A stretch of DNA of 64,000 bases, from assembly GCA_022508305.1 (NCBI GenBank), contig JAFLVM010000001.1, positions 189,347-253,346 of the forward strand, read 5' to 3'. The notes beneath the pieces were generated by a model. The model worked only from the letters and a program-made list of their open reading frames with translations. It had not been told where the DNA came from and searched no databases. This DNA is from Clostridiales bacterium. GTDB lineage: Bacteria; Bacillota; Clostridia; Christensenellales; CAG-314. The position numbers and the translations under genes were made by a program. Positions 3,176 to 63,085 of the stretch are shown one piece after another; positions within the stretch are counted from its first letter, which is position 1, and each line of letters begins with the position of its first letter.

Positions 3176-5419
3176 TTATTTCCAATACCAAAAGTCCAGT
3201 ATTGATGGGGATTTATTTTCCGATTGTTCCTCGTTAGATTGCGGGGGCGTGTCCGTAACGTATACTTTAACCTGTGGAGTGGTGTAGACAAGTTTACCCT
3301 TTACGTACAGTTCGGCGTAAAAGACGGCGTCTTCCGTCAGGTTAGCAGTGTACGTTTCATCACGGCAGTCAAGCCTTACGTAATTTTGTTCAGTACCGTT
3401 CGAATTGTCCTGAGTCTTGGCGTAAAGCTGCCAAATACCGTCTTCTACGTGAGGTAATCCAATGGTAAGCTCGTTACCGTTCATTTTTGGCTCGAGGACG
3501 TAACCGTATGCGATTTTTTGCAACGTCTCCTTTGGTTGATTTGCCGTATCGAACCAGAATTTCAACCCCATGTCGCATTTTAGTAAAATTTGATCTTCGT
3601 ACAGACTGTCTTTATCGACGTCAAGCTGAACTACGGTTTTGGGCGGTATAAATTTATTTGGTTCATTTTTGTAATATATCTTATCCAGTAGTTTTGAAGC
3701 GAAACTACAGGGCGCGGTGCTGCCGTTTACGTTGTTGGACATGTCGCCGCTATACCACACGACGAACGTGTTGTCGGTAGTGTAACCTGCAACAAGTGCG
3801 TCTGAGTTTCCTTCGCTTGTTCCAACGGTGCCTGTTTTTGCAGCAACCTGATAGTTGGATTTTTGGAGTGTTTTTGCCGTGCCTGCGTTTACCGTATTTA
3901 CCAGCATATCCGTCATCAGATAATTTGCGCCACTTTGAAACACTCTTTCGTTTTTGAGATTTCTACTGTATATCAATCCGTTACCGCTGTATATATTTTT
4001 AATGAACGCGACGTCGTTGCACTGACCGTCGTTTGCAAGCGTGGCGTAACATTTGGCGAGAGTAAGTACGTCCAATCCTCCGTTAGCGTTACCAAGCGCA
4101 AGCGACAAATTTTGTTCGCCCATTATTCCAAACTTTTTAAGATATTTTTCCGCAGTGGGTAAACTCAGCGCATTTAGAGTTTTGACTGCAGGCACGTTTA
4201 AACTCTTTGCAACGGCGTATTTTACAGTTGTCCAACCGTTGTAACCGCCGGCATTGGTGGGCTTGTAACCGTTGAAGTCAGTTTCTTCGTCGAGTACGGG
4301 CGATGCCTGTGTAATAATTTTCTCGTTGAGCGCAGGCGCGTACACTGCAATCGGCTTGATTGCGCTACCTACCTGACGGCGCGCTCCTGCAGTTTCGCCG
4401 CGAAGAACACACGCCTCAACTCCGCCCATGTTGTCACACACTACGCAGGACAGGTCGGCGAGAGTTCCACGTTTTGTAGCGGTAGTGTCGTCGTTAACAA
4501 GCGCGCGCAACTGACGTTGAGTTGTTTGATTGCAGTACGTTTCAATGATAAAGTCCGATTTGTACAACTGCATTGGCGTCATATTCAGTATTCTGCACGC
4601 TTCCTGAATAACTTGATAAACGTATGTTTTTTCATTTTGCGTCTTTTGCGGGCAGTAAGTTATTTCGGTTGCAATCGCCTCGTCATATGTTTCCAAATCA
4701 ATAATTTGCTGCTCAAGCATCAATTTTAGTACGACGTCGCGGCGAGTTTTGCATTTTTCTGCGTTTTTGTCCGGCGCGTAGTTGTTGGGAGCTTTTATCA
4801 TACCTGCAAGCACGGCGCTTTCCGACACCGTCAAGTCGGACGCACTTTTGTTGAAATAAACGTTTGCAGCCGTTTCAATCCCATACGCGTTACGCCCAAA
4901 GTATATGGTATTGAGGTACATTTCAAGTATTTCCTTTTTGCTGTAGGCGTTTTCCAATTCGCTCGCAAGCAACATTTCATTTATTTTACGCTTTATGTTT
5001 TTGTTGTTGTCCAAGTGGGTGTTCTTGATTAGCTGTTGACTAATGGTGGAGGCACCCTCTTTGTAGCCGCCGCTTCGAATATTGTGAAGTAGCGCACCGA
5101 CAACACGCCTGTAATCTATTCCGTCATGTTCAAAAAATCGCTTGTCTTCAACGGCAACAAACGCCATATACGTATATTCATTGAGCGCATCAAGGGGGAT
5201 TTGCTTGTAATCGTTCAGATATAGCGGTTCTGTCAGTGCCGCGCCTTCGTTGTCAAGCACGGTAAGCGAGGTATAAACTTCGTTTAGACGACCCTTGTCA
5301 AAATGCACGTAACTCTCGCTGTTGCGTAATTTTTGCACAAAAATCACTCCGCTTAATACAACGGTTATTATTAGTGCGGCGGTTACAATTCCAAATATCT
5401 TCCAAAAGTTCTTTTTCAT
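3176..5419 (-). CDS. Class A penicillin-binding protein (PBP1A type)
   Basis: Bifunctional peptidoglycan synthase at the outer face of the membrane. A cytoplasmic tail and one membrane anchor are followed by a GT51 glycosyltransferase domain (VAVEDKRFFEHDGID, GASTISQQLIKN, EILEMYLNTIYFG). The transpeptidase domain follows with SAIK (SxxK), SLN (SxN) and AKTGT (KTG), so all three catalytic boxes are intact. A ~120-residue C-terminal region beyond KTG is beta-rich. I chose the ATG at 5419 (MKKNFWKIFG); an in-frame GTG at 5446 has no ribosome binding site. Transcribed divergently from miaB. Confidence 0.93.
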   Translation of the reverse strand: MKKNFWKIFGIVTAALIITVVLSGVIFVQKLRNSESYVHFDKGRLNEVYTSLTVLDNEGAALTEPLYLNDYKQIPLDALNEYTYMAFVAVEDKRFFEHDGIDYRRVVGALLHNIRSGGYKEGASTISQQLIKNTHLDNNKNIKRKINEMLLASELENAYSKKEILEMYLNTIYFGRNAYGIETAANVYFNKSASDLTVSESAVLAGMIKAPNNYAPDKNAEKCKTRRDVVLKLMLEQQIIDLETYDEAIATEITYCPQKTQNEKTYVYQVIQEACRILNMTPMQLYKSDFIIETYCNQTTQRQLRALVNDDTTATKRGTLADLSCVVCDNMGGVEACVLRGETAGARRQVGSAIKPIAVYAPALNEKIITQASPVLDEETDFNGYKPTNAGGYNGWTTVKYAVAKSLNVPAVKTLNALSLPTAEKYLKKFGIMGEQNLSLALGNANGGLDVLTLAKCYATLANDGQCNDVAFIKNIYSGNGLIYSRNLKNERVFQSGANYLMTDMLVNTVNAGTAKTLQKSNYQVAAKTGTVGTSEGNSDALVAGYTTDNTFVVWYSGDMSNNVNGSTAPCSFASKLLDKIYYKNEPNKFIPPKTVVQLDVDKDSLYEDQILLKCDMGLKFWFDTANQPKETLQKIAYGYVLEPKMNGNELTIGLPHVEDGIWQLYAKTQDNSNGTEQNYVRLDCRDETYTANLTEDAVFYAELYVKGKLVYTTPQVKVYVTDTPPQSNEEQSENKSPSILDFWYWK
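3561..3580 (+). repeat. Dispersed ACCCCATGTCG repeat, copy 1 (inside PBP gene)
   Basis: Core ACCCCATGTCG at 3565-3575, followed by CATTTTAG. It lies antisense within the penicillin-binding protein gene, where it encodes CDMGLK. See the repeat-family finding. Confidence 0.5.
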
Positions 5420-5464
5420 ACCTCTAATATTGTTTGTGATTTCCACTTTTTATATTTATTTCTC

Positions 5465-5493
5465 TTGAAAAATATTGTAAAAAAGTGTAAAAT
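5465..5493 (+). promoter_or_regulatory. Sigma-A type promoter for miaB-mutS-mutL-miaA
   Basis: TTGAAA, 17-bp spacer, TAAAAT. This places the transcription start about 40 nt before the miaB ATG at 5540. Confidence 0.65.
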
Positions 5494-5539
5494 GTATTTA
5501 TATGTGAAAGTATGTCGTAAAGACGCTTTCGGAGGAAGC

Positions 5540-6859
5540 ATGAACTACTTTATTCACACTTACGGATGTCAAATGAACGTTCACGATTCGGAAAAAATAG
5601 CAGGTATTTTGGAAGGTCTCGCTTACAGTGCTTGCGACAGCGTAGAGAAAGCCGATATCGTCGTATTTAACACCTGTTGCATTCGGGAAACAGCCGAGCA
5701 AAAAATCTACGGACATATTGGCGCGTTGAAAAAGCTTAAACGCAACAACCCAAACTTAATCGCAGTAGTGTGCGGTTGCATGTCGCAGCAGGAAGGAGTC
5801 GCGGACAAAATCAAGTCAAGTTACCCCTATGTTGACATCGTTTTAGGAACTACTAACCTCAATCTACTTGAGCGGGCAGTAGTGGACGCGCGCAAAAAGA
5901 AAAAATACTACAACGTGGATTTTCTGCAATACAGCGAAGAAGACTTCAATCAAACGCGAACAAGCTTTCCCAACGCTTGGGTAAACATCAATTACGGTTG
6001 CAACAATTTTTGCACATACTGCATTGTTCCCTATGTCCGCGGACGGGAGCGAAGTAGACCAATGAGCGACGTATTGAACGAGGTAAAACAACTGCTCCGT
6101 GACGGCTACAAAGAAGTTACGCTGCTTGGGCAAAACGTCAATTCATACGGACACGACCTACAAGAGCCTGTTACCTTTGCAATGCTATTGCATGAAATTG
6201 GTAAACTTGAAGGCAAATTTCGCTTGCGTTTTATGACCTCGCATCCCAAAGATTTGTCGCAGGATGTCATTGACGCAATTGCAGCGTATCCCAACATTTG
6301 TGACAATATTCACCTGCCTGTTCAAAGCGGCAGCAACGAAATTTTACGCAAAATGAACCGCCGTTATACTCGCGAAAATTACTTCGAGTTAATTGACAAA
6401 ATACGAAAATCCCTACCCCATGTCGGAATTACGACGGACATCATGGTGGGATTTCCCGGCGAAACCGATGATGATTTCGAGGACACTTTAGATTTGGTTC
6501 GACGCGTCAAATACAGCTCGGCGTTTTGCTTTGTGTATTCCCGCAGAAAAGGCACGCCCGCCTATTCAATGGACAATCAAATTCCCTACGCTGTGAAAAA
6601 GGAGCGTATAACTAGACTTTTGGCATGTCAAAACGAGGTAACAAAAGAAATTAGCAAATCAATGGTTGGCAACACCTACGAGGTTTTGGTTGAGGGGGCT
6701 AACTTCCATTACCAAAACACTATGTGCGGACGTACCGAGAGTGGGCGACTTGTCAACTTCAAGTGCGACGAAACTTACATTGGCAAATTTGTTTCCGTGC
6801 TAATTGAACGCGCAAGCTCCGCTACGCTGTGGGGCAGAATTGTATCGGAGGAAAAATGA
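5540..6859 (+). CDS. miaB: tRNA-2-methylthio-N6-dimethylallyladenosine synthase MiaB
   Basis: Radical SAM enzyme that adds the 2-methylthio group to i6A37 in tRNA. The 439-residue protein has the UPF0004 cluster cysteines (YGCQMN, NTCCIRE, CGCMSQQ), the radical SAM CxxxCxxC in GCNNFCTYCIVPYVRGRERS, and a C-terminal TRAM domain. The start is ATG 5540, preceded by GGAGG; the open frame extends upstream but without support. miaA, which makes its substrate, lies at the end of the same cluster. The stop overlaps the mutS start (ATGA). Confidence 0.96.
   Translation: MNYFIHTYGCQMNVHDSEKIAGILEGLAYSACDSVEKADIVVFNTCCIRETAEQKIYGHIGALKKLKRNNPNLIAVVCGCMSQQEGVADKIKSSYPYVDIVLGTTNLNLLERAVVDARKKKKYYNVDFLQYSEEDFNQTRTSFPNAWVNINYGCNNFCTYCIVPYVRGRERSRPMSDVLNEVKQLLRDGYKEVTLLGQNVNSYGHDLQEPVTFAMLLHEIGKLEGKFRLRFMTSHPKDLSQDVIDAIAAYPNICDNIHLPVQSGSNEILRKMNRRYTRENYFELIDKIRKSLPHVGITTDIMVGFPGETDDDFEDTLDLVRRVKYSSAFCFVYSRRKGTPAYSMDNQIPYAVKKERITRLLACQNEVTKEISKSMVGNTYEVLVEGANFHYQNTMCGRTESGRLVNFKCDETYIGKFVSVLIERASSATLWGRIVSEEK
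6408..6430 (+). repeat. Dispersed repeat, copy 2 (inside miaB)
   Basis: TCCCTACCCCATGTCGGAAT, core 6415-6425, sense within miaB, encoding LPHVGI in a part of the radical SAM domain that tolerates variation. Confidence 0.45.
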
Positions 6860-11360: not shown

Positions 11361-12260
11361 ATGAAAACAATCGTTGGCATAACGGGCACAACCTCAGTTG
11401 GGAAATCTGCCGTAGCGGTTCGGTTGGCAAAGCTGCTCAACACGGAAGTTATTTCCGCCGACTCAATGCAAATATACAAGGGTATGAACGTTGGCACGGC
11501 GAAAATTACGCATGACGAAATGATGGGCGTGCCGCATCACATGATAGACGTTGTGGAGCCAAACAGCAACTATTCATCCTTTTTGTACCAACAGGATGCG
11601 TCACGTATTATCAACGGTATGCAAACAACCCCTATAGTCGTTGGCGGCACAGGGTTCTACTTTGACAGTTTGCTGTATCCACCGGAATTTGGTGACGGTA
11701 GTGCAGAAAGACGGCAACAGTTGCAAAGCTTGTTGGAAACGGATGGATTACCCGCGTTACAGGAAATATTGCGAAATTTGGATGAAGCAACGTACGCAAT
11801 TATTGACAGGCAAAATCCAAAGCGTGTCATTCGCGCCATAGAAATTGCCGAAAGCGGCATGCTTAGGTCTCAAGGACAGGGTAAAAGAAACCCTCAATAC
11901 AATTTAATACTGTTCGTGCTGCAACGCGATAGGCAAGATTTATTTGCGCAGATAGACACGCGAGTAGACGAAATGATTGCAAACGGTCTAATTGACGAGG
12001 TAAAATCGCTTGTTGATAAATACGGTTACTGCGACACATCGGCATTCTCGGCAATCGGCTACAAAGAAATTATTGAGTATTTGCAAGGTAAAACGACGGT
12101 AGAGCAGGCAGTTGATAAAATCAAACTCAACACCCGCCATTACGCAAAAAGACAAATTACTTACTACAAGAAAATGAACGTCAAAGAGTACGTAGACGTA
12201 GAAAACAAAAGCAGTTTTGAGATTGCGCAGCACATACGCGACGTACTGCTTGAAAGCTGA
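11361..12260 (+). CDS. miaA: tRNA dimethylallyltransferase MiaA
   Basis: Transfers dimethylallyl from DMAPP to A37 of tRNAs reading UNN codons; MiaB then methylthiolates it. The 299-residue protein has the P-loop GTTSVGKS, the SADSMQIYKGM motif, VVGGTGFY, and a C-terminal HYAKRQITYYK. ATG 11361 follows the mutL stop by 1 nt with AGAGGA upstream; a longer frame reaching 11331 inside mutL is unlikely. In many Bacillota hfq follows miaA; here the next 155 nt contain no hfq reading frame. Confidence 0.95.
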   Translation: MKTIVGITGTTSVGKSAVAVRLAKLLNTEVISADSMQIYKGMNVGTAKITHDEMMGVPHHMIDVVEPNSNYSSFLYQQDASRIINGMQTTPIVVGGTGFYFDSLLYPPEFGDGSAERRQQLQSLLETDGLPALQEILRNLDEATYAIIDRQNPKRVIRAIEIAESGMLRSQGQGKRNPQYNLILFVLQRDRQDLFAQIDTRVDEMIANGLIDEVKSLVDKYGYCDTSAFSAIGYKEIIEYLQGKTTVEQAVDKIKLNTRHYAKRQITYYKKMNVKEYVDVENKSSFEIAQHIRDVLLES

Positions 12261-12267
12261 AATATTC

Positions 12268-12300
12268 AAGTTTTCCCACCCCATGTCGCGTTTTTGCGTG
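12268..12300 (+). repeat. Dispersed repeat, copy 3 (after miaA)
   Basis: GTTTTCCCACCCCATGTCGC then GTTTTTGCGTG; core 12278-12288. It is one of the best matches to the consensus, located just after the miaA stop between two same-strand genes. No classical terminator accompanies it. Confidence 0.6.
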
Positions 12301-12415
12301 ATATCAACCAAAAATTCACATTTTGTTACGTGGCGATTTGTGGCAATATTTAGTAAAAATTTATTAAAAATCAACAATAAATAAAACGAAATTGAAAGAT
12401 TAATCAGGTACTAAA

Positions 12416-13624
12416 ATGAACAAAGAAATTTCAAACGCATTGGAACAAACAAAAGAAATATTTGCCAAATTAGACGAAATAGCTTTGCAAAACCAAGCAA
12501 AGGTCATTGCTGCATTTAGAAAAAATGAAGTAGCTTTGCGTCATTTTAACGGAACAAGCGGATACGGTTCAGACGATATAGGTAGAAAAACCTTAGGCGA
12601 AGTTCTTGCTCACGTTTTTGGCGCGGAAAAAGCGATTGTCACTCCGCTAATTGCTTCAGGAACCCACGCAATTTCTCTTGCATTGTTTGGTGTTTTACGT
12701 CCAAATGACGTTGTTTTGTCCGTAACCGGCAAGCCTTACGACACGCTTACTGACGTTGTATACAAAGAAGGTATCGGGAGTCTCAAGGATTTTAATGTGA
12801 AATTTGACACAGTTGATCTGCAAAACGGTCAATTCGATTACGACGCTATAAGTCAGTATCTTTCTACAAACAAAGTAAAAATGGTTTATCTTCAACGTTC
12901 GCGCGGTTATGCTTGGAGACCTGCTTTAAGCATTGCTCAGATTGAGAAAATTTGCGCTTTTGTGAAGAAAATCGCACCCCATGTCGTGATTTTTTGCGAT
13001 AATTGCTACGGAGAATTCGTTGAAGAACGTGAACCCACACAGGTTGGTGTTGATCTCTGCGCGGGATCTTTTATTAAAAATATCGGTGGCGGACTCGCTC
13101 CTACAGGCGGGTACGTTGTAGGGCAAAGCGATCTTGTGGATTTGGTTGCAGGACGGCTTACAGCGCCCTCAATCGGCGCGGAAGTAGGTTCATATCAAGC
13201 AGGATACAGACTGTTTTATCAAGGACTGTTTTTAGCACCGCACACAGTTAATCAAGCGCTCAAAACGTCCACGTTGTTTTCTTACGTGCTGGCGGCGCGT
13301 GGCTACGAAGTGACGCCTCACGCAGGAGAGCATCTTGGTGATATAGTTTGCTCAATCAAGCTTAATGATGCTGACAAAGCAATCAAATTCTGTCAAGCTA
13401 TTCAATCCGTTTCGCCCGTGGACAGCTTTGTAACGCCTGAGCCATGGTCGCAGGCGGGATACGCGGACAAGGTTATTATGGCGGCAGGCTGTTTTGTAGA
13501 AGGCGCGTCGATAGAGCTTAGCTGCGACGGACCAATCAGACCGCCTTATACAGTTTATTTGCAGGGCGGGCTTACAATCGAACACGGGATTCTGGCACTG
13601 GAACAGGTTTTGAAAATGCTATAA
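12416..13624 (+). CDS. PLP-dependent methionine gamma-lyase-like protein (YnbB family)
   Basis: Member of the family often labelled aluminium resistance protein or methionine gamma-lyase-like (YnbB in Bacillus). The fold-type I PLP enzyme of 402 residues has HFNGTSGYGSDDIGR near the N terminus, FGAEKAIVTPLIASGTHA, DNCYGEFVE, and the predicted PLP lysine in GSFIKNIGGGLAPTGGY near residue 220. The physiological substrate is not established. Its position between miaA and hflX matches Bacillota synteny. Upstream DNA is AT-rich without a convincing promoter, and the ribosome binding site (CAGG) is weak. Confidence 0.88.
   Translation: MNKEISNALEQTKEIFAKLDEIALQNQAKVIAAFRKNEVALRHFNGTSGYGSDDIGRKTLGEVLAHVFGAEKAIVTPLIASGTHAISLALFGVLRPNDVVLSVTGKPYDTLTDVVYKEGIGSLKDFNVKFDTVDLQNGQFDYDAISQYLSTNKVKMVYLQRSRGYAWRPALSIAQIEKICAFVKKIAPHVVIFCDNCYGEFVEEREPTQVGVDLCAGSFIKNIGGGLAPTGGYVVGQSDLVDLVAGRLTAPSIGAEVGSYQAGYRLFYQGLFLAPHTVNQALKTSTLFSYVLAARGYEVTPHAGEHLGDIVCSIKLNDADKAIKFCQAIQSVSPVDSFVTPEPWSQAGYADKVIMAAGCFVEGASIELSCDGPIRPPYTVYLQGGLTIEHGILALEQVLKML
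12968..13000 (+). repeat. Dispersed repeat, copy 4 (inside YnbB-like gene)
   Basis: AAATCGCACCCCATGTCG then TGATTTTTTGCG; core 12976-12986, sense, encoding APHVVIFC just before the conserved DNCYGEF motif. Only about 700 bp from copy 3. Confidence 0.5.
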
Positions 13625-13634
13625 TTTCTTATAG

Positions 13635-13675
13635 AACAGCATCTGACTCAAAAGAGAGTTATATGCTGTTTTTTC
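13635..13675 (+). terminator. Terminator after the YnbB-like gene
   Basis: Stem AACAGCAT / ATGCTGTT enclosing an inner ACTC/GAGT pairing, followed directly by a run of six T. It lies 11 nt after the stop codon. Confidence 0.8.
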
Positions 13676-14080
13676 AAAGTTTTGCAAGAATTCTTTTACC
13701 TTGACACAAAGAATTTTTAATTAAATTTGACAATAATTATAATCAAAAAATTCTGATAAAATGCCTCAAAAAGCTCTGTTTTGTCTTTAACCACTCTCAC
13801 AGCCTCTTTTTTACCCTATATCTATTCGCAAAAGCTGCCTTTTGCGAATAGATACAGGTAACACATTTTTTGGGGCTTCAACAAAATTACCACCCTCCCA
13901 CTGCCAATTAGATTTGTGAGATGAACACATCACAAGAAACAAACTTTAACGACCGATAGTAGAATGAAATCAGTATTTAGCGTGAGCTACCAACAAACTA
14001 TATTATTTTTACACCATTACAGTTTCAGTGAAATTTGGGTGCATATTAACAAAATTATTCGCAAAAACGTTTCAAAAGTG
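13676..14080. other. Long non-coding region upstream of the recombinase
   Basis: About 400 AT-rich bases with no credible reading frame. The only clear structure is the two TCTATTCGCAAA inverted-repeat pairs, annotated separately. No recognisable RNA gene or riboswitch was seen. Confidence 0.6.
13815..13858. repeat. Perfect 16-bp inverted repeat containing TCTATTCGCAAA
   Basis: Left arm TATCTATTCGCAAAAG (13819-13834), loop CTGC, and an exact reverse-complement right arm (13839-13854). The pairing continues for four more bases with one mismatch. No T-run follows, so it is not a standard terminator. The motif recurs at 14057-14097, next to the recombinase gene, so a protein-binding or recombination role is more likely than termination. 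Confidence 0.8.
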
Positions 14081-14097
14081 TTGCTTTGCGAATAGAT
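14057..14097. repeat. Second TCTATTCGCAAA inverted repeat; candidate dif site or operator
   Basis: ATTCGCAAA at 14057-14065 and its reverse complement at 14085-14093, 19 nt apart; the right arm extends to AATCTATTCGCAAA read on the minus strand. It overlaps the -35 box and spacer of the recombinase promoter. In streptococci and lactococci the single recombinase XerS has its dif site directly beside the gene. That parallel is inference; autoregulation is the alternative. Confidence 0.55.
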
Positions 14098-14109
14098 TTG
14101 CTGTAAAAT
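14081..14109 (+). promoter_or_regulatory. Promoter of the recombinase, leaderless arrangement
   Basis: TTGCTT, 17-bp spacer, TAAAAT, then exactly 6 nt to the ATG at 14116. Transcription should begin at or next to the start codon. No Shine-Dalgarno sequence is present. The same arrangement occurs at lexA and at the gene ending at 59164. Confidence 0.65.
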
Positions 14110-14115
14110 TTACGT

Positions 14116-15183
14116 ATGAGTAAGACATATTTTAATAATCGTGATGCAGACAACATAGACAAATTGGAAAGAATCTTAGATGAGGACCTGCCCGACTTCT
14201 GTCGCGAGTACTTTGTGGGCATCTCTGCCAACACTACGCCTCTCACACGGCTAAATTACGGTTACGACATTAGAACATTCTTCAACTATTTATGCGCTAA
14301 AATCGTAAGATTTAGAAGTAAGAGCGTAAAAGACATCACTCCTGCCGACATAGAATCACTGTCGCCGTTTGAAATCGAGGCGTATCTCAGCTACGTTGAA
14401 ATATACCGAGACAAGGATGGCAACATCGTCAAAAATGGCGCGCGCGGAAAGAGCCGCAAGTTAGCAGCCATTCGGTCAATGGTAAAATACTTTGAAAAAA
14501 AGCAAATAATAAAGTACAACCCCACCGCTTCAGTTGACACGCCAAAGTTACGCGAAAAGGAAATAATCCGCCTTGACAGCAACGAAATCGAAAACATGCT
14601 GGACGTCGTCGATACAGGAAACGGGCTAACGGACAGGCAACAAAAGTATCAGGAAAACACACGCGTACGCGATTTGGCAATAGTCAGTCTGCTGCTTGGC
14701 ACGGGAATTCGTGTTAGCGAGTTGGTCGGAATAGACATGGACGACGTAAACTTTGATGACTTGAGTTTTGTTGTAACCCGAAAGGGTGGCGCGCGCGTAA
14801 TACTCTACTTTTCAGAAGAAGTTGCCGGCTACCTCAGCGACTATTACAGGATTCGCGAAGCGGACACCACTCTTAAAAATGAGCCAGCGCTGTTTTTGTC
14901 GTTACAAAAAAGGCGCATAACCACGCGCGCGGTAGAAAACATTGTAAAAAAGTACAGTTCTGTTGCCACGCCGCTCAAGCATATCACGCCGCACAAATTG
15001 CGCTCCACTTTCGGCACACAACTGTACCGTAACACAGGCGACATTTACGTCGTGGCGGACGTTTTGGGACACAAGGACGTCAATACAACCAAGCGTCATT
15101 ACGCCGCCATTACAGAAGATATTAGACGTAGCGCCTCAACGAAAGTCAGTTTGAGAAGCGCACCGCCAAAGGACGAAGAATGA
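14116..15183 (+). CDS. Tyrosine recombinase, XerS-like
   Basis: Site-specific recombinase of 355 residues. The N-terminal SAM-like DNA-binding domain is followed by a catalytic domain with GTGIRVSELVG (Arg), VTRKGGAR (Lys), HKLRSTFGTQLY (His-x-x-Arg), LGHKDVNTTKRHY (His and Tyr). All catalytic residues are present. Length and an insertion before the catalytic domain resemble XerS, the single-recombinase type, rather than ~300-residue XerC/XerD. There is no phage gene nearby and hflX overlaps its stop (ATGA), so it looks like a resident housekeeping enzyme, probably for chromosome dimer resolution. XerS subtype is by resemblance only. Confidence 0.85.
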   Translation: MSKTYFNNRDADNIDKLERILDEDLPDFCREYFVGISANTTPLTRLNYGYDIRTFFNYLCAKIVRFRSKSVKDITPADIESLSPFEIEAYLSYVEIYRDKDGNIVKNGARGKSRKLAAIRSMVKYFEKKQIIKYNPTASVDTPKLREKEIIRLDSNEIENMLDVVDTGNGLTDRQQKYQENTRVRDLAIVSLLLGTGIRVSELVGIDMDDVNFDDLSFVVTRKGGARVILYFSEEVAGYLSDYYRIREADTTLKNEPALFLSLQKRRITTRAVENIVKKYSSVATPLKHITPHKLRSTFGTQLYRNTGDIYVVADVLGHKDVNTTKRHYAAITEDIRRSASTKVSLRSAPPKDEE

Positions 15184-16424
15184 AAGTTAAAGTTGAAAAC
15201 GTTGCGTTAGTATATTTGGAACTGCCTGACAGCAACGCTGAACAAGATTTGTATGAGCTTGAGGAACTTATAAGTACAGCTCAAGGGGAAATAAAACTGC
15301 ATTGCACTCAAAAGCGCAATTCTATTGACGCGAATACGGTTTTGGGCAAGGGCAAACTTGAGGAACTCAAGCGAACAATTGAACTACTGGACTGCGAGAT
15401 AAACGTGGTCATTTTTTCCTGCAACCTCAACGCTACGCAACGCGCGCTGCTCAAAAAAACTTTGAATTGCGACGTTATTGACAAGATAGATTTGATATTA
15501 GATATTTTTGCCTTGCGCGCCACGTCAGCAGAGGGAAAAAAGCAGGTTGAACTTGCGCAGCTTTCGTACAATTTGGCGACCAAACCCGAAGGTGATTTTT
15601 CCAGACAGGGCGCAGGAATAGGAACGCGCGGACCAGGCGAAACGAAACTTGAAACAAACAAAAGACTTGCGCGGGAAAGAATGTACAGATTGCGTCAAGA
15701 GCTGAAAGAAATTGAAAAGCACCGCAATCTCACACGCAAAAAACGGGAAGAAAACGGGATGTTTACAGTAGCGCTTGTTGGCTACACCAACGCCGGAAAA
15801 TCTACGCTGTTCAACCGCATTACCGAGTCCGCCGTGTACGCTGACGACAAGCTTTTTGCAACGCTGGACACCACCGTTCGGAAGGTAAAAACGCGACATG
15901 GGGTGGAGATTTTGATATGTGACACCGTTGGGTTCCTAAAAGAGTTGCCTCACGCTTTGCTAAACGCATTCAAGTCCACTTTGGAAGAGGCGACGCGCGC
16001 AGACCTACTATTAAACGTTTGCGACGCATCCGACAGCAACGTAGAAAGGCATATTGAAGTAACGGAAGAGACCCTTGCGGAACTTAGCACCACTGCGCCC
16101 ATTGTACGAGTTTACAACAAGTGTGACAAGCTTGCAGACAACTCGGCGTTGCCATTGGAACCTGCGCGTACTTCAATTTATCTGTCTGCGCTGACAGGCA
16201 AAAACGTTGACGTCTTGATGGAAACAATAGACAACTACGTCATGTCGAAATATGCAGTAGTTAAGCTTAGAGTACCTCACGCCGACAGCGCCAAACTGCT
16301 CTCCGACTTACACAAATATTCCGCTGAGTGCCAAGAGGTAAATTACTTGGACGAATGCGTAGAAATGAAGGTGGTAATTTCCAAGAAATACGTAGATCTT
16401 GTAGCCCAATATATCTATTTCTGA
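15180..16424 (+). CDS. hflX: Ribosome-associated GTPase HflX
   Basis: GTPase that binds and splits stalled or stressed ribosomes. The 414-residue protein has the HflX N-terminal domain with the glycine-rich GIGTRGPGETKLETNKR and a coiled region, then the G domain: G1 GYTNAGKSTLFN near residue 200, G3 DTVGFLKELPH, G4 NKCD. The C-terminal domain is complete. The start overlaps the recombinase stop by 4 nt, and a terminator follows. A copy of the dispersed repeat lies inside the gene just before the G3 motif. Confidence 0.95.
   Translation: MKVKVENVALVYLELPDSNAEQDLYELEELISTAQGEIKLHCTQKRNSIDANTVLGKGKLEELKRTIELLDCEINVVIFSCNLNATQRALLKKTLNCDVIDKIDLILDIFALRATSAEGKKQVELAQLSYNLATKPEGDFSRQGAGIGTRGPGETKLETNKRLARERMYRLRQELKEIEKHRNLTRKKREENGMFTVALVGYTNAGKSTLFNRITESAVYADDKLFATLDTTVRKVKTRHGVEILICDTVGFLKELPHALLNAFKSTLEEATRADLLLNVCDASDSNVERHIEVTEETLAELSTTAPIVRVYNKCDKLADNSALPLEPARTSIYLSALTGKNVDVLMETIDNYVMSKYAVVKLRVPHADSAKLLSDLHKYSAECQEVNYLDECVEMKVVISKKYVDLVAQYIYF
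15885..15915 (-). repeat. Dispersed repeat, copy 5 (inside hflX)
   Basis: On the minus strand it reads CTCCACCCCATGTCGCG then TTTTTAC; core 15894-15904. It encodes RHGVEIL in hflX, a different reading frame from copies 2 and 4. Confidence 0.5.
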
Positions 16425-16462
16425 CGCGCTCGCAATTTACAATATCACAAACTCAGACAATA

Positions 16463-16491
16463 AGGCGACATTCTTTTAATGTCGTCTTTTT
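16463..16491 (+). terminator. Terminator after hflX
   Basis: GGCGACATT / AATGTCGTC stem with one G-U pair, loop CTTTT, followed by TTTTTG. Confidence 0.8.
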
Positions 16492-16514
16492 GTATAACAA
16501 ATTCAATAATTTTA

Positions 16515-16526
16515 GAACAAAAGTTT
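16515..16526. promoter_or_regulatory. Candidate LexA (SOS) box
   Basis: GAAC-AAAA-GTTT, close to the Gram-positive LexA consensus GAAC-N4-GTTC/T. It lies 9 bp upstream of the lexA -35 box, as expected for autoregulation. No similar site was seen before recA, which is inside an operon. Confidence 0.45.
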
Positions 16527-16535
16527 TATTTTCTG

Positions 16536-16564
16536 TTGTAATAGTTTTGAATTTGTGCTAAAAT
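16536..16564 (+). promoter_or_regulatory. lexA promoter, leaderless arrangement
   Basis: TTGTAA, 17-bp spacer, TAAAAT, then 6 nt to the lexA ATG. There is no Shine-Dalgarno sequence between promoter and start. Confidence 0.7.
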
Positions 16565-16570
16565 ACAGTT

Positions 16571-22236: not shown

Positions 22237-22272
22237 GCAAAAAAACAAGCCCGACATATAATCGGGCTTGTT
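22237..22272 (-). terminator. Terminator after recA
   Basis: Minus strand AACAAGCCCGA / TCGGGCTTGTT (11 bp) with a short AT loop, followed by TTTTTTT. Confidence 0.9.
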
Positions 22273-22303
22273 AAAAAATTGACATGGGGTGGGGATTTTG
22301 CGT
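22272..22303 (-). repeat. Dispersed repeat, copy 6 (recA 3' UTR)
   Basis: Minus strand AAAATCCCCACCCCATGTCA then ATTTTTTAAC; core 22280-22290. It lies between the recA stop and the recA terminator. Confidence 0.6.
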
Positions 22304-22310
22304 TTTTTGA

Positions 22311-48807: not shown

Positions 48808-48892
<85 letters not shown>

Positions 48893-48988: not shown

Positions 48989-49006
48989 ACTATTATTCCA
49001 ACAATG

Positions 49007-49082: not shown

Positions 49083-49089
49083 AAAACAT

Positions 49090-49166: not shown

Positions 49167-49185
49167 AAATATTTTGTTTTGCATT

Positions 49186-49262: not shown

Positions 49263-49281
49263 AAACGATGCCAGTTACGTT

Positions 49282-49358
49282 TGGTCGGGGCGACAGGATT
49301 CGAACCTGCGACCCCATGGTCCCAAACCATGTGCGCTACCAAACTGCGCTACACCCCG
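49282..49358 (-). tRNA. tRNA-Pro (anticodon TGG)
   Basis: 77 nt, acceptor CGGGGTG with CGCCCCG (one G-U pair), anticodon loop TTTGGGA, T-loop GTTCGAATC, encoded CCA. First gene of the array. Confidence 0.95.
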
Positions 49359-51084: not shown

Positions 51085-51092
51085 AAAATGTC

Positions 51093-51123
51093 GAAAAAAT
51101 TAACATGGGGTCAGAAAACTTGC
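51093..51123 (-). repeat. Dispersed repeat, copy 7 (part of the sigF terminator)
   Basis: Minus strand GTTTTCTGACCCCATGTTA then ATTTTTTCG; core 51102-51111. The GGGTCAGAAA part is also the 5' arm of the sigF terminator stem. Confidence 0.45.
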
Positions 51124-51142
51124 TTTCTGACCCGATTTTAAT
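51108..51142 (+). terminator. Terminator after the spoIIA operon
   Basis: Perfect 10-bp stem GGGTCAGAAA / TTTCTGACCC, loop ACTTGC, followed by GATTTTAATT. Confidence 0.9.
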
Positions 51143-53995: not shown

Positions 53996-54017
53996 AATTT
54001 CTTATCTAAATTTAACC

Positions 54018-54049
54018 AAAAAAATGAACATGGGGTGGGAAAACTCGCG
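54018..54049 (-). repeat. Dispersed repeat, copy 8 (after plsY)
   Basis: Minus strand GTTTTCCCACCCCATGTTC then ATTTTTTTGG; core 54027-54036. It abuts the plsY stop codon, in the plsY 3' region, and is one of the best consensus matches. Confidence 0.6.
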
Positions 54050-54766
54050 CTATTTGACAATTTTGTCCGACTTACCACGCAACGCTTTGCGCAGTCCGGT
54101 ACGCTTTTCTTGCCCAGTGAAAATCCGAACGATATTTTGCCTGTGAGCGAATATTACCACGCCGTACATAACGGTTGTGACAAGACAGCAAAACGCGTCG
54201 ATATTAACGTACACTACTCCCCACTCGTAAATTTGCGCGTAGCCCACGTACCAGGCTACCCAGCTCCACACTATCATAAACAGCGCCAAGATTAGACTCA
54301 TAACTGAAACTCTGTCAGAAACAAGCACAATTACTATACACGGAACCACAAGACACAATGCAAACAGCGGCTGCAACGAAAAGGTTACGCCAATGCTCGT
54401 CGCAACACCCTTGCCGCCGCGAAAACGGTAGTACGCGGGAAATACGTGTCCAAGCACTGCAAACAAGCCTGCAACGTACCCTGCTGTCGTCGCTTCTACC
54501 TCTCCGCAGCTTTTGAAAATGAGTTTGGCAAGTAGCACACAGGCAACGCCCTTCATCGTGTCGCAAACGAAGGTCAGCGTGCCCATGCGAAGCCCGTAAA
54601 CCCTAAACATATTAGTGGTACCTGCATTGCCGCTGCCGTAGTCGCGCACGTCGCTTTTTTTGAATAGCTTGGAAAAAACTACCGCAAAATTGATGTTGGC
54701 GAACGCGTAACAGCAAAGCGCGAGCAAAAGGTATTGCCACCATAGTTTTGCAAAAACGTCAAACAT
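54050..54766 (-). CDS. plsY: Glycerol-3-phosphate acyltransferase PlsY
   Basis: Membrane enzyme acylating glycerol-3-phosphate from acyl-phosphate. The 238-residue protein has the motifs GSGNAGTTNMFR and RFRGGKGVATSIGV and about five membrane segments. It is ~35 residues longer than most PlsY proteins, with a basic tail (TGQEKRTGLRKALRGK). The start overlaps the last base of der. Confidence 0.93.
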   Translation of the reverse strand: MFDVFAKLWWQYLLLALCCYAFANINFAVVFSKLFKKSDVRDYGSGNAGTTNMFRVYGLRMGTLTFVCDTMKGVACVLLAKLIFKSCGEVEATTAGYVAGLFAVLGHVFPAYYRFRGGKGVATSIGVTFSLQPLFALCLVVPCIVIVLVSDRVSVMSLILALFMIVWSWVAWYVGYAQIYEWGVVYVNIDAFCCLVTTVMYGVVIFAHRQNIVRIFTGQEKRTGLRKALRGKSDKIVK

Positions 54767-56091: not shown

Positions 56092-57389
56092 AACTCACAC
56101 TCCAATATTGCCTGACAAAATTCGTATCCGTCGGCAGTGATGATAATTTTTTTGCCAACGGCTTTTGCAAGTTCGTCAAGCGTCATTCCGTCCAAAAAGA
56201 CGTCTTCCGTTTCACGCAACATAACGCGTGGCAACAGCAACGTGTCGCCTACGTCCGTCCTGTCCTTCAAAGTCGCAACGATGTCTTGCCCCACAACGAG
56301 TCCTGCAACAGTCACAGTTTCGCCGAAGAATTTGTTGACAACCGTTATTACGTTTGCTTGAAGTTGTGGAAACAGACTCTTTGCCTTATCCAACTGCTGC
56401 TGAACAAAGGGCGTTGCGGCAACTCCAGTTACCACCGTAAAACTGCCCTTTTTCGCAGCAACAGCGTCTTGTAATGCCAAATCAAACTGATAACGCATAT
56501 CGGCGACCAAGCCTACGCCGTTTTCCAGTTGCTCAAAGTTGCCGTAATAATCGTAAGACGGAATTTCACGTTCTGCATAAACGTACATTTCGTCAGCGCA
56601 GTAGACAAAGTGCTGCCCCGTCTTGGAAAAACACGCCGCGTCAAAACTTTCCACCAAATCAATGGTTTTACAGGCTTGCTCTTTGCTCACAGGTTGCAAG
56701 TCGTGAAGTCCACAACGGTGTTTCGTTAGCCCCACCGGCACCACTGCCAAATTTTGTACTGCGGGGTAAAGCGAGAACAAATCTTCCATGGTCTTTGCAA
56801 GCACCTGTCCGTCGTTCAAATCAGGACACATCACTACCTGCGTGTACAGCGTAATGCCACTGTCGGCAAACTCCTTCAAAAGAGGCATAATAGGTCGTGC
56901 CTTGGGATTGCCGAGAAGTTTCCTTCGTACATCGTCATCGGTGGCATGCACGGATACGTACAGCGGTGAAAACTGCTTATCTTTTATTCGAGCGACTTCA
57001 TTGTCATTGATATTTGTCAATGTTACGAAGTTGCCCGACACAAAAGACAATCGCCAATCATCGTCCTTGACGTAAAGGGTTTTACGCTGTCCTTTAGGAA
57101 GTTGATCCACAAAACAAAAGATACATTTGTTGGCGCACCAACGCGGTTCAATGTAGCTTTCGTCGTAAAAATCCCACCCCATGTCAACATTTGCGTCTTT
57201 TACAACATCAAACGTCAGATGTTTGCCGTTGCGTTCTACCGTTACTGAAAACTCCGATTGCGAGTCAAAATAGGCAACGTCAAGCATGTCGCAAGCGCGC
57301 TCACCATTGAACGCTACCACAACGTCGTCTTTCTTTAGACCTATTTTGCTTGATATTGAATTTTTGTCTAAACGGGAAATTCTAAGCAT
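56088..57389 (-). CDS. DUF512 radical SAM-like protein (PDZ plus Fe-S)
   Basis: The 433-residue protein has an N-terminal PDZ-like domain (SKIGLKKDDVVVAFNGE), the radical SAM-type cluster NKCIFCFVDQLPKGQR, LYVKDDDWRLSF, and the DUF512 C terminus. It is conserved next to der in Clostridia; function unknown. The longer frame to 57446 would cross a terminator, so ATG 57389 is preferred. A dispersed repeat copy lies in the linker before the cluster. Confidence 0.9.
   Translation of the reverse strand: MLRISRLDKNSISSKIGLKKDDVVVAFNGERACDMLDVAYFDSQSEFSVTVERNGKHLTFDVVKDANVDMGWDFYDESYIEPRWCANKCIFCFVDQLPKGQRKTLYVKDDDWRLSFVSGNFVTLTNINDNEVARIKDKQFSPLYVSVHATDDDVRRKLLGNPKARPIMPLLKEFADSGITLYTQVVMCPDLNDGQVLAKTMEDLFSLYPAVQNLAVVPVGLTKHRCGLHDLQPVSKEQACKTIDLVESFDAACFSKTGQHFVYCADEMYVYAEREIPSYDYYGNFEQLENGVGLVADMRYQFDLALQDAVAAKKGSFTVVTGVAATPFVQQQLDKAKSLFPQLQANVITVVNKFFGETVTVAGLVVGQDIVATLKDRTDVGDTLLLPRVMLRETEDVFLDGMTLDELAKAVGKKIIITADGYEFCQAILECEL
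57166..57200 (+). repeat. Dispersed repeat, copy 9 (inside DUF512 gene)
   Basis: AAATCCCACCCCATGTCA then ACATTTGCG; core 57176-57185. It encodes VDMGWDFYDE in the linker between the PDZ-like and Fe-S domains, antisense to the gene. Confidence 0.55.
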
Positions 57390-59680: not shown

Positions 59681-60451
59681 TCATGCCATTTCGTTGCGTA
59701 GGTGTGACATCGCGTTTTTTTCCAGACGTGACACCTGCGCCTGACTAAGCCCCACCTCGCGCGAAACTTCCATTTGCGTTTTTCCCTCAAAGTAACGCTT
59801 CAATACGATGTTTTTTTCCTTTTCTTCCAAGGTGTTGAGCGCATCGAACAGCGTTACGTTTTCCGCCCAAATATATTCGGAACACTTGCTGTCAGAAATG
59901 TGATCCATGAGCGTCAAACTGTCCTCTTCGTCAGAGTAAACCGTCTCAGAAAGCGATATGGGGTCGGAAATTGCGTCCAAACAGTACAGCACCTTGTACA
60001 CGGGCAGATGCATTTCGTCGGCTATTTGGTCTATCGTCGCTTCGTCCACACTTTCGCTTTCCAACCTCTCGCGAGTCTGCAATGCCTGATAGGCAACGTC
60101 GCGAATTCCGCGGCTGACGCGCATAGATCCTTCCCGCAAAAAACGGCGAATTTCGCCTATAATCATGGGCACCGCGTAGGTGGAAAAACATACGCCGACG
60201 TCCACCTTGAAATTGTCTACAGCCTTTATTAGACCGACGCAACCGATTTGAAATAAATCGTCGGGATTACTAACCCTGTAGGAGTAACGCTGAACGATGG
60301 ACAGCACCAAACGCAGATTACAGTTGATAAAATAGTTGCGGGCAACGGCGTCTCCTTTGGAAATTCTGACAAGCAGTTCGTTGGATTCCTTTTGCGAAAG
60401 CTTGGGCAGCGCGGAAGTGTCAACGCCGCAAATTACGACTTTTTTGCTCAA
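59681..60451 (-). CDS. sigG: RNA polymerase sigma factor SigG
   Basis: Late forespore sigma factor of 256 residues. The N terminus VVICGVDTSALPKLSQKE is characteristic of sigma G; region 2 DLFQIGCVGLIKAVDNF and region 4 GLSQAQVSRLEKNAM are intact. The start codon is TTG with GGAGGG 8 nt upstream. ylmC/ymxH follows, as in other spore formers. Confidence 0.96.
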   Translation of the reverse strand: MSKKVVICGVDTSALPKLSQKESNELLVRISKGDAVARNYFINCNLRLVLSIVQRYSYRVSNPDDLFQIGCVGLIKAVDNFKVDVGVCFSTYAVPMIIGEIRRFLREGSMRVSRGIRDVAYQALQTRERLESESVDEATIDQIADEMHLPVYKVLYCLDAISDPISLSETVYSDEEDSLTLMDHISDSKCSEYIWAENVTLFDALNTLEEKEKNIVLKRYFEGKTQMEVSREVGLSQAQVSRLEKNAMSHLRNEMA

Positions 60452-60581: not shown

Positions 60582-62231
60582 ATGTTACGCGAATTTATTG
60601 ACCAACTGGACAAGCTTCCGCAAAAAATAATGGCAAATTGCATTGAAATTGACACCGACAAACCGTTGATCGGTATAATTTCCGCGCAAAACGAGGTTTC
60701 CACCGCGCACAAAAACCTGGATGAACTCTGTCAACGCGTAAAAGAGGGGATTCTGTCAAGCGGCGCGTCAGCAAAATTGGTACACCTCGCGTCCTTGGAC
60801 TGCACGGCGCTACACGGCACTCAGTCCACTAAGTACGACCTTCCTTCGCGCGACCTTACGGCAAACGCGGTTGAAATGCTCTGCTCCAACGACTTTTTCG
60901 ACGGATTGGTGTTTGTTGCAAGCGAACCGAATATCGTAGTTGGAATGCTGCTTGGCGCAATACGCCTCAACATTCCCTGCGCGTTTGTTTGCGAAGGTAC
61001 TATGACGCCGATAGTTTACAACAACAAAGAGCACGGCTTTGCCCACTTTTACGAGCAAATTGCAAAGATAAAGACCGGCCGCACCAAGTATGAAGCGATT
61101 TCCGAAATAGAACGCAACCTTCCTTTGGCTTTAGGTACCGACTGCGAAAGATACGGCGCAAACAGCTTCAATTGCTTACTTGAAGCGGTAGGATTGGCAG
61201 TAAAAGGCAACGGCACTGCACCTGCGTCCTCCGTAGAGCGTAAAACCATCGCCTACAAGACGGGTGAGCTTGCCGTTCAACTTGCCAATGACAAATGTAC
61301 TCCCAAAAGATTGATTAACAACAACACTCTGCATAACTTGGCAGTTTTGGATTTGGCATGCGGAGGAAGCTCCACCACCATGCTCAACCTCATTGCCATT
61401 GCAAAAGAACTTGGAATAAAGAATTTTACCTTCAAAACCGTTGGCGACCTTGCCAAAAACACGCCTCTACTGCTGTCGCGTGAGAATGGAAACGGCTGCA
61501 TTATGCCGCAATACCACAACGCCGGCGGAGTTTACGCTATGTTAAAGCAACTGTTGGACGGCAAACTCATTAAGGGCGACGCGCCCGTAAACGACGGAAC
61601 AACTCTTGCGGATTTACTTAAAGACGTAGCCGTCTCAAACACCAACGTAATACGTCCGATAACCAACAGCGTTGCGCCCTCGTCAAGGCTACGCGTAATT
61701 TACGGAAACGTCGCGGAAAGCGGTGCCTTCGTTCAGTACGACGTGCCCGAAGGTGTGTTTACAGGTTCCGCTAAGGTGTACGCAAATGAGGAAATGGCAA
61801 TCGACGCGCTACTTCACAGGGAAATACGCGCAGGCGACGTGCTCGTTATACGCGGGGAAGGACCCAAGAGCGGACCGGGCATGAGGGAAATTTACACCTC
61901 GCTTGCGCTACTCAAGGGTTTCAATCTTGAAGACAAAGTGGCGGTAATAACGGACGGACGTATCGCCGATTTCTACAAAGGTTTCGTTGTCGGACATATC
62001 ACACCGGAAACAGGCGAACAAAATTTGTTCAGCGTATTGCAAGACGGCGACCAGATTGAAATAAACGTATTGAAGGGCAAAGTGAACTGTGACATAAAGG
62101 CAAAAGAGCTTGCTCAACGTTACCGCGACAGCGACGTCGGCGTTGGCAACTACGGAAACTTCTTCCTCAAAAACTGGGCAAAAACCTGTTCAACTGCCGT
62201 TGACGGTTGCATTTACAAAAACAAAAAATAA
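60582..62231 (+). CDS. Divergent IlvD/Edd-family protein lacking the usual catalytic residues
   Basis: 549 residues aligned along the whole length of dihydroxy-acid dehydratase (YDLPSRDLTANAVEML, GMLLGAIRLNIP, GANSFNCLLEAVGLAVKGNGT, LACGGSSTTMLNL, GEGPKSGPGMREIYTS). The family CDK motif, carrying an Fe-S cysteine and metal ligands, reads EPN. The second cluster cysteine position is Asp, and the catalytic serine of DGRFSG is replaced (DGRIAD). No other branched-chain gene is near. It is unlikely to be an ordinary IlvD; it may be a pseudoenzyme or have a new activity. Confidence 0.8.
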   Translation: MLREFIDQLDKLPQKIMANCIEIDTDKPLIGIISAQNEVSTAHKNLDELCQRVKEGILSSGASAKLVHLASLDCTALHGTQSTKYDLPSRDLTANAVEMLCSNDFFDGLVFVASEPNIVVGMLLGAIRLNIPCAFVCEGTMTPIVYNNKEHGFAHFYEQIAKIKTGRTKYEAISEIERNLPLALGTDCERYGANSFNCLLEAVGLAVKGNGTAPASSVERKTIAYKTGELAVQLANDKCTPKRLINNNTLHNLAVLDLACGGSSTTMLNLIAIAKELGIKNFTFKTVGDLAKNTPLLLSRENGNGCIMPQYHNAGGVYAMLKQLLDGKLIKGDAPVNDGTTLADLLKDVAVSNTNVIRPITNSVAPSSRLRVIYGNVAESGAFVQYDVPEGVFTGSAKVYANEEMAIDALLHREIRAGDVLVIRGEGPKSGPGMREIYTSLALLKGFNLEDKVAVITDGRIADFYKGFVVGHITPETGEQNLFSVLQDGDQIEINVLKGKVNCDIKAKELAQRYRDSDVGVGNYGNFFLKNWAKTCSTAVDGCIYKNKK

Positions 62232-62233
62232 GT

Positions 62234-62273
62234 GATTTTTTCGACATGGGGTAGGAAAAACTTGCAATTTGCG
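62234..62273 (-). repeat. Dispersed repeat, copy 10 (after the IlvD-family gene)
   Basis: Minus strand GTTTTTCCTACCCCATGTCG then AAAAAATCAC; core 62242-62252, located 11 bp after the stop codon and before the terminator, as with copy 6. Confidence 0.6.
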
Positions 62274-62350: not shown

Positions 62351-62434
62351 TTTGCTTAGTTAAATCATTTATACAATAAAGCTTGTTTACAAAACGGCCT
62401 CATCGAATATTAAATACGATCTATTTTTTACGCT

Positions 62435-63028
62435 CTATTTTTTCTTAGCGCGAGCTTTTGCAAGCTCTTCCTGCCAACACCAATAACACATACTCTCGTA
62501 CGCCTCGTCGCCACCTATGAGCACCACGGGACCGTCATCTACGCATTTACCGTCCACGAAACGGGCGTTAACGGATGACTTACGTCCGCAACGGCAAACA
62601 GACTTGATTTCCTGCAAGGAGTCTGCCAGTTCCACCAAACGTTTGCTACCCTCAAACAGTTGACACCTGAAATCCAACAGTAATCCGTAGCAAAGTACTG
62701 TAACACGTTTTGTGAGCTGCTTGAGTTGGTTGATTTGCTCCGTCGTGCAAAATTGAGCCTCGTCCACTATTATACAATCGTAAACTACGTCTTTACTTGC
62801 CTTTTCAAACAAGTCAATGAAACTGTCGGACGGCGAGATTGTGTAACACTTTGCCTTGAGACCGATACGGGAGCGTACCATGCGTTCCTCTTCGTCATCT
62901 CGAGTGTCAAGAGCGGGTTTCACAAGCAAGACCTTCATACCCTTTTGCTCATAGTTGAACTTGCACATGAGCGCTTGCGCGGATTTGCTGCTTGCCATTG
63001 TTCCATATTTGAAATAAAGCTTCGGCAT
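62435..63028 (-). CDS. tdk: Thymidine kinase
   Basis: Phosphorylates thymidine in the salvage pathway. The 197-residue protein has the P-loop YGTMASSKSAQAL, VDEAQF, and zinc cysteines in CRCGRKSSVNARF and CYWC. The start MPKLYFKYG is chosen for its AGGAAA site and typical length; the longer frame to 63064 enters a repeat copy. Confidence 0.94.
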   Translation of the reverse strand: MPKLYFKYGTMASSKSAQALMCKFNYEQKGMKVLLVKPALDTRDDEEERMVRSRIGLKAKCYTISPSDSFIDLFEKASKDVVYDCIIVDEAQFCTTEQINQLKQLTKRVTVLCYGLLLDFRCQLFEGSKRLVELADSLQEIKSVCRCGRKSSVNARFVDGKCVDDGPVVLIGGDEAYESMCYWCWQEELAKARAKKK

Positions 63029-63054
63029 ATTCTTTTCCTTTGTCATTTGATTCA

Positions 63055-63085
63055 TTTTTTTCACCCCATGTCGCAGAATTTACTA
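63055..63085 (+). repeat. Dispersed repeat, copy 11 (between tdk and fhs)
   Basis: TTTTTCACCCCATGTCG then CAGAATTTAC; core 63063-63073, in the short gap between the fhs stop and the tdk start. Confidence 0.5.

Follow-up and report, generated by a model that had tools for sequence, protein, structure and literature searches.

Which kind of signal is a short motif that recurs twelve times in a single stretch of clostridial DNA, inside genes as well as between them? The stretch (the window, 64,000 nucleotides) belongs to the 1.47-Mb (1472 kb) draft genome of an uncultured member of the Clostridia (G000, whose DNA is called own DNA here), and the motif has a non-palindromic core of 11-12 bp (YCACCCCATGTCG). 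In our view it is very probably a binding signal acting at the level of DNA, whatever its use. We tentatively infer a DNA-wrapping protein, for which the motif would be a clade-specific site, and a topological function, chromosome organisation being the likeliest use.

All 11 cores listed in a sequence-only reading of this DNA were recovered in the window, six in one orientation and five in the other as described there. Nine of the positions stand as given, and those at 51102 and 54027 shift by one base, to 51101 and 54026, in the register of the 11-mer. The nine exact 9-mers announced were counted again as nine CCCCATGTC cores, ACCCCATGTCG is exact in seven window cores, and a twelfth, weak copy was added to the earlier list (copy 10 in Table 1). 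With a tolerance of two mismatches, 28 matches to the 11-mer lie in the window, compared with 9.9 +/- 3.1 in shuffled sequences, none of 100 shuffles reaching 28. An abundance above base-composition chance also holds genome-wide, with 49 occurrences of CCCCATGTC versus 9 of its reversed control word in 1.47 Mb. In an unbiased own sample of 444 kb (the window plus 19 sampled readable stretches), CCCCATGTC was found 17 times (0.67 expected), and ACCCCATGT was the most over-represented 9-mer of all (32 versus 0.79 expected).

For genome-wide searches we used a sequence profile of 49 columns, built from 78 hand-chosen copies out of 99. Its E-values are rough, and its counts are lower bounds because at most 150 candidates were scored per genome. 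In G000 it detected 72 copies at E<=0.01, or one strong copy in roughly 20 kb. At E<=10 there were 135, the weakest of them doubtful. A weight matrix, applied separately with a threshold of 13 bits, yielded 82 matches in 608 kb of own DNA, a sample partly taken around known copies, and none in the reversed sequence. The gap seen earlier between 22.3 and 51 kb is genuine in that the profile gives no match with E<0.5 from 22.3 to 51.1 kb; the annotated part of this stretch is ordinary housekeeping DNA (FtsK, PNPase, IspH-S1, tRNAs) and not an island. The motif had been said to match no known family, and none of the open-licence papers listed for it reports it; those listed as containing the string ACCCCATGTC, a part of all matches, are unrelated by title.

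On the C-rich strand, the consensus consists of W-tracts, TTTTCYC, A, CCCCATGTC, G/A, C/A, N and WWWWW. Conservation thus extends beyond the 9-mer, as had been claimed, with TTTTCYC 5' and CG/CA-N-WWWWW 3' of the core; the conserved unit seems much larger than proposed, the A/T content oscillating with a period of ~11 bp over some 45-65 bp to either side of the core. Peaks lie near -63, -51, -39, -28, -17, -7, +14, +24, +35 and +47 (194 sites, picked partly by their near tracts), and the phasing continues up to the core. The maximum of the period is broad, near 11.25-11.5 bp, and the profile mirrors itself closely around 3.5, at mid-core (r 0.90), a centre at -1.5 being almost equal. Phased A/T tracts on both sides suggest DNA that is bent around a protein.

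At 155 sites selected by the core only, the phasing at -76..-22 and +29..+83 was stronger than in all 500 random sets (0/500). Because genomes have an intrinsic periodicity, two further controls were made. The larger one, to which we give more weight, consisted of 1000 resamples from a bigger pool, matched for tract score and GC core. The amplitude was 0.072 at -63..-21, compared with 0.027 +/- 0.009 in the control (0/1000), and 0.081 at +26..+68, compared with 0.016 +/- 0.008 (0/1000); the phasing was also beyond the control at +48..+80 (0/1000) and was not significant at -76..-44 (60/1000). For the right arm and the inner part of the left one, the long phasing holds firmly; further out on the left it is less certain. 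It is present, with similar phase, when 43 coding and 48 intergenic or gene-edge sites are taken apart, the weakest of eight tests against random controls giving 2/400; the non-coding set comprised 48 of 56 sites, omitting the copy at a tRNA end, second members of pairs, a miscalled miaB copy and three others.

Gene context was assigned with a simple codon-bias gene caller, which wrongly called at least one miaB copy of the related genome G024 intergenic. The 49 exact own copies are divided into 26 coding, 21 intergenic and two gene-edge ones, and the 21 intergenic copies include seven between convergent genes, none between divergent genes and one at the end of a tRNA. In the unbiased sample, 12 of the 33 sites were intergenic (15% expected, p 0.0017), one of them divergent. 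The observation that intergenic copies often lie 3' of stop codons gained statistical weight: nine of these 12 follow a stop by no more than 45 bp (16% expected, p 1e-5). The copies just behind the stops of miaA, recA, plsY and the IlvD-family gene had been placed correctly, and the gene names agree with Pfam. Among the 43 coding sites, taken from three genomes, all six combinations of frame and strand are used; 32 are antisense, and 21 of these are in the frame reading D-M-G. Between tandem genes, copies in the same and in the opposite orientation number 5 and 8 in G000 and 5 and 10 in G024. The use of all frames and of both intergenic orientations suggests that selection acts on DNA rather than on RNA or protein.

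Most informative for the origin of the copies is miaB. In 23 MiaB orthologues, the codons for LPHVG carry the motif only in G000 and G024, the two richest of the 23 species compared; the other 21 have D, N, S or E instead of H, in a gap-free alignment. The copy at 3565 is common to G024, and the sister species G023 and G011 differ from it by gap-free substitution. That at 15894 is absent without a gap from G023 and G011, and absent from G024 in a gapped alignment, and at 57176 G023 differs by gap-free substitutions. Several other nucleotide alignments were gapped and uninformative. Judged from these alignments, the genic copies compared, at four sites, arose by substitution, not insertion. The designation as a "short dispersed repeat" therefore stands as regards dispersion above chance, and fails, for the comparable genic copies, as regards the copying it implies. 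The relatives compared lack the intergenic copies at the corresponding position, four of four at 12278, two at 22280 and one each at 51101 and 54026; the recA spacer of G011 has a decayed copy elsewhere, and the whole spacer around 54026 is shorter in G023. Going by spacer lengths, insertion is possible for the intergenic copies. An alignment with G024 across the site was available for 7 of the 49 own sites, and in five of these the perfect core is conserved against a background identity of 70-79%; the sample is biased toward G024 copies.

Relatives were represented by 25 genomes of the genus and 16 from other genera of the same family. At E<=0.01, with filters that were set more strictly for this count, the profile found 72 copies in G000, 71 in G024 (76% complete), 29 in G020, 13 in G008 and 12 in G006, the drafts of these five motif-rich species being 76-97% complete. 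Nine further genus genomes have 1-7 copies, giving 14 motif-positive genomes out of 25; there were no copies at this threshold in the other 11, nor in any of the 16 genomes from other genera. At E<=1, seven of the 11 motif-negative genomes give 1-5 weak matches. In a tree of MiaB from 23 species, G000 is placed nearer to G023 and G011, with few copies, than to G024, with many (moderate support, 93/91), from which it follows that the motif was either lost in G023 and G011 or spread apart from the tree. No comparable 9-mer that could be a "dialect" of the motif occurs in 200 kb of G023; in 100 kb of G011, the top 9-mers are different ones. A strict pattern search in a collection of named genomes returned 13 stretches, nine from HAN104, one from each of two metagenome-assembled genomes labelled Lapin, which we take to mean rabbit, and two from unrelated records. 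Viral spread was considered and rejected: a strict 19-mer matches two IMG/VR stretches, about chance level by our own estimate.

On contig C1, the GC skew is positive from 0 to 150 kb, negative from 270 to 840 kb and near zero or positive beyond, and a dnaA domain is located at C1:832744-833229. Since the skew turns at 20.2 kb of the window, the window holds the predicted replication terminus. Placement relative to the terminus covers the 54 copies on C1 (E<=0.01), the remaining 18 lying on C12 and C23. As many as 24 are found in the densest 175 kb (185-360 kb), which contains the skew turn, and none of 5000 simulations was as dense. The distribution on C1 is clumped (variance/mean 2.5); the right-arm trend, with p 0.03, counts against a simple gradient toward the terminus, as do the few copies at 0-185 kb (see below). 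Three matches in G023 lie beside the terminus region, where two matrix matches fall within a giant gene repeating the same stretch, and three of the 14 matches at E<=1 in G011 lie within ~9 kb beside it; we do not count this proximity as evidence because it was noticed after the fact. Giant open reading frames (ORFs) of 2621 and 2236 aa (L181:755-8620 and 12394-19104) adjoin the terminus region of G023, the second having a repeat with motif-like copies. In the window, lexA-, recA- and ftsK-type genes are close to the skew turn (~20230), and there was no convincing match to a dif consensus.

According to our proposal, a predicted sequence-specific protein would wrap or bend ~100-130 bp of double-stranded DNA around itself. 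It would read the core directly, and the A/T tracts, which recur with every helical turn on each side, would present their minor groove to the protein. Point mutation would give rise to copies and maintain them in any gene or spacer that can accommodate one, between genes mostly right behind stops. Their job would be that of dispersed anchor points for chromosome organisation or topology, densest in the stretch with the predicted terminus. The matS/MatP system likewise consists of dispersed protein-type sites; here, the sites are densest around the predicted terminus and show no polarity switch. Unlike matS, the core is non-palindromic, and the sites are enriched at the terminus and not confined to it, occurring also far away. 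We favour a wrapping-protein site because the long arms match gyrase but the centre fits only one of six gyrase preferences, and because the motif does not reach the density of known uptake sequences and pilus-type machinery was not found; uptake is the chief rival.

Several observations weigh against this proposal, whose binding protein is a postulated one. The sister species G023 and G011 are nearly motif-free (5 and 4 copies at E<=0.01); this near-loss, together with the lack of copies at the same threshold in 11 of the 25 genus members, is odd for a chromosome function. In the stricter of the two phasing controls, 155 control sites matched for near tracts and GC-rich spacers keep an amplitude of 0.040 in both far flanks, compared with 0.052 (left) and 0.073 (right) at the motif. 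The control thus retains 55-77%, so that the near tracts by themselves may account for part of the long phasing, chiefly on the left. Around the terminus, the pattern is blurred as well: only two copies occur at 0-185 kb of C1, which likewise adjoins the terminus, and the densest window emerged from a scan of a single genome. Finally, the 9-base core is unusually strong, with 32 perfect occurrences and 66 with one mismatch, compared with 3 and 76 for the reversed control.

This strong core speaks for the chief rival, a reading that we consider unlikely on balance: by analogy with uptake signal sequences (USS) and DNA uptake sequences (DUS), the motif would mark self DNA for natural transformation and would have been multiplied by biased uptake and recombination. 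In the parts of PMC1626085 used here, USS are characterised by a strong core, helically spaced A/T segments and an origin by substitution, the strong-core anomaly is reported for uptake sequences and not for ordinary binding sites, and uptake signals are described for Pasteurellaceae and Neisseriaceae only. The non-palindromic strong core of ~9-11 bp, the A/T segments one helical turn apart and the four substitution-made genic copies are all shared with the Pasteurellaceae USS; the inverted partners in G024 and their hairpins (see below) would also suit an uptake signal. The same source gives about one USS or DUS copy per kb, compared with which the motif, at ~1 strong copy per 20 kb, is ~20-fold too rare, and describes USS as somewhat more regular than random, whereas our copies are clumped. 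Further differences are the occurrence in Clostridia, for which none of the open-licence papers listed reports an uptake motif, and a phasing on both sides that seems to reach beyond the USS segments described in that part of the source. The 11-mer CACCCCATGTC has 9 perfect and 20 one-mismatch occurrences, versus 0 and 7 for its reversed form; near-matches being in excess too, the edges of the core are relaxed.

In favour of uptake, ComEC is encoded in all 25 genus genomes, motif-poor species included. Against it, T2SSF was found in four (G010, G012, G002 and G004), none of them motif-rich, and full-length T2SSE in the same four; T2SSE matches at E<=0.001 occur in 23 of the 25 genomes, those outside these four being short and partial. 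The searches with these two models thus detected neither a pilus platform nor a full-length motor gene in the motif-rich drafts. The T2SSE and T2SSF genes of G010, G012, G002 and G004 are of the type IV pilus/secretion type (loci L138, L139, L206, L207). A short canonical ComEA was not found, the helix-hairpin-helix model (TIGR00426) matching only ORFs of 647-782 aa, all above 640 aa, which we take to be Tex-like and ligase-like. This result is weakened as proof of ComEA loss by a small gene directly upstream of comEC, overlapping its start and conserved in all seven species examined (L210:6691-7236 on the minus strand; also L211, L184, L200, L202, L115 and L116; 166-192 aa, one cut by the locus end). 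By eye, its product may be a ComEA lipoprotein of divergent sequence whose helix-hairpin-helix is degenerate; that of G000 has no Pfam match. ComEA is the subject of PMC3879209, and in PMC12616744 (2025) the USS receptor is still called unknown, a minor pilin being predicted, both sources being used here in part.

The literature on gyrase (PMC6379681, PMC12324340 and PMC12393610, each in the portions used here) provides the closest match for the long phased arms. Could the motif be a high-affinity gyrase site, a topological sink behind genes that functions like the strong gyrase site of Mu (Mu SGS) or BIME-2? We regard this as improbable. The E. coli gyrase motif in PMC6379681 spans 130 bp, with periodic arms (10.75 bp) at -63..-17 and 20..66, close in extent to the arms seen here, and 10-11-bp GC periodicity is common to the gyrases of three species (PMC12324340). 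Arms of ~47 bp with about this phasing are present on both sides of our motif, partly reproduced by the strict control, and the intergenic copies sit behind genes, as a topological sink would. By contrast, the E. coli motif is described as degenerate and without a fixed core, whereas the core here is strong and fixed and the tracts run up to it. Of the centre preferences in PMC12324340 (-4G/+8C, -2A/+6T, +1G/+4C), one of six fits when they are aligned by hand with the A/T-profile dyad at 3.5. Nor is there a reason why gyrase sites of this kind should occur in one clade only. Gyrase as the owner of the motif was dropped on account of the centre preferences.

A very improbable explanation is that the copies are terminator hairpins or the remains of a small transposable repeat. 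The position of intergenic copies behind stops would agree with it, as would the shorter G023 spacer at 54026, which leaves room for an intergenic insertion. An inverted ATGGGG partner occurs within ~45 bp at 11 of 45 G024 sites (both pair members counted), and three inverted pairs that were folded (two from G024, one from G008) form strong hairpins (z -4.5 to -7.8); in G000, only 2 of 72 sites have such a partner. Both orientations between tandem genes and the gap-free genic copies argue against this explanation, and Rfam matches in the window are to tRNAs only, none at a copy. The mobile-element version is largely refuted for genic copies, and with neither a fixed orientation to transcription nor a conserved hairpin, the motif is not an RNA element. 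The repeat families REP/BIME, BOX and RUP are likewise dispersed and often located behind genes; the motif differs in being non-palindromic in G000 and in its genic copies not being inserted.

That the motif is a polar signal for forks or translocases (KOPS, Tus/Ter, Chi) is hardly credible: enrichment in the stretch containing the predicted terminus and a prevalence of plus copies on the right arm would suit such a signal, but orientation does not switch at the terminus (6 plus and 2 minus on the left, where copies are few; 29 plus and 13 minus on the right), and the bias may follow the coding copies, predominantly antisense, which amino-acid tolerance could explain. KOPS and SRS resemble the motif as chromosomal signals that are G-rich on one strand; the motif is much longer and has no such switch.

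Table 1. Copies of the motif and two context features in the window (window coordinates; scores of the copies are from the profile)
Feature	Extent	Core	Strand	Location	Score
Copy 1	3554..3592	3565-3575	+	inside transglycosylase/transpeptidase gene (3176-5446, - strand)	27.5 bits, E 1.4e-7
Copy 2	6398..6438	6415-6425	+	inside miaB (5465-6859)	23.7 bits
Copy 3	12260..12304	12278-12288	+	~18 bp past miaA stop	38.3 bits, E 4.9e-11
Copy 4	12961..13002	12976-12986	+	inside methionine gamma-lyase family gene (12416-13624)	22.2 bits
Copy 5	15883..15918	15894-15904	-	inside GTP-binding GTPase gene (15180-16424)	28.3 bits
Copy 6	22269..22307	22280-22290	-	directly past recA stop	25.3 bits
Copy 7	51085..51125	51101-51111	-	between convergent sigma factor and spoIVA genes	18.2 bits
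Copy 8	54011..54052	54026-54036	-	directly past plsY stop	20.0 bits
Copy 9	57166..57199	57176-57186	+	inside DUF512/Radical-SAM gene (- strand)	20.8 bits
Copy 10 (weak)	59948..59977	59954-59964, ACCCCATATCG	-	inside sigma-factor gene	14.2 bits, E 0.0024
Copy 11	62225..62270	62242-62252	-	~11 bp past IlvD-family stop, between convergent genes	27.7 bits
Copy 12	63048..63090	63063-63073	+	start-codon end of thymidine kinase gene (62435-63064)	27.4 bits
Tyrosine recombinase (phage-integrase family) gene	14116..15183		+	near predicted terminus, context only	PF00589, E 3e-32
Cumulative GC-skew maximum	20230			predicted replication terminus, context only	

Copy 3 is the highest-scoring copy in the genome, and copy 6 is adjoined by a separate terminator-like inverted repeat, recognised by eye. 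The window further contains a cluster of six tRNAs (48811-49358, minus strand), a seventh tRNA at 19604-19675 and, at 34411-36447 (minus strand), one protein in which a LytB/IspH domain is fused to S1 RNA-binding domains (Pfam LytB, S1). It also encodes a small protein (46160-46477, minus strand) with a match to the TfoX N-terminal domain barely above the cut-off.

In its build, the motif resembles the DNA-uptake signals of quite different bacteria. Wrapping sites with a strong core and phased flanks of ~100-130 bp, point-mutated into genes and spacers, may represent an undescribed genome-wide signal, a suggestion we make with reserve: they would be either anchors of a chromosome organiser or the first uptake-type signal of Firmicutes without a type IV pilus. 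If Clostridia with no pilus genes in their drafts carry a USS-like motif, such motifs would be able to arise for a reason other than uptake, and one could then test whether it is uptake or a general bending of DNA that underlies the A/T segments of USS. Should chromosome organisation be their role, the sites would constitute a new sequence code that is naturally present in one species and nearly absent from its sister species. Around coding copies, the A/T phasing is suggestive of a constraint on DNA shape that is strong enough to influence protein-coding sequence, and the MiaB substitution, seen only in the two richest of 23 species, would be an example of such a possible effect of DNA shape on protein sequence.

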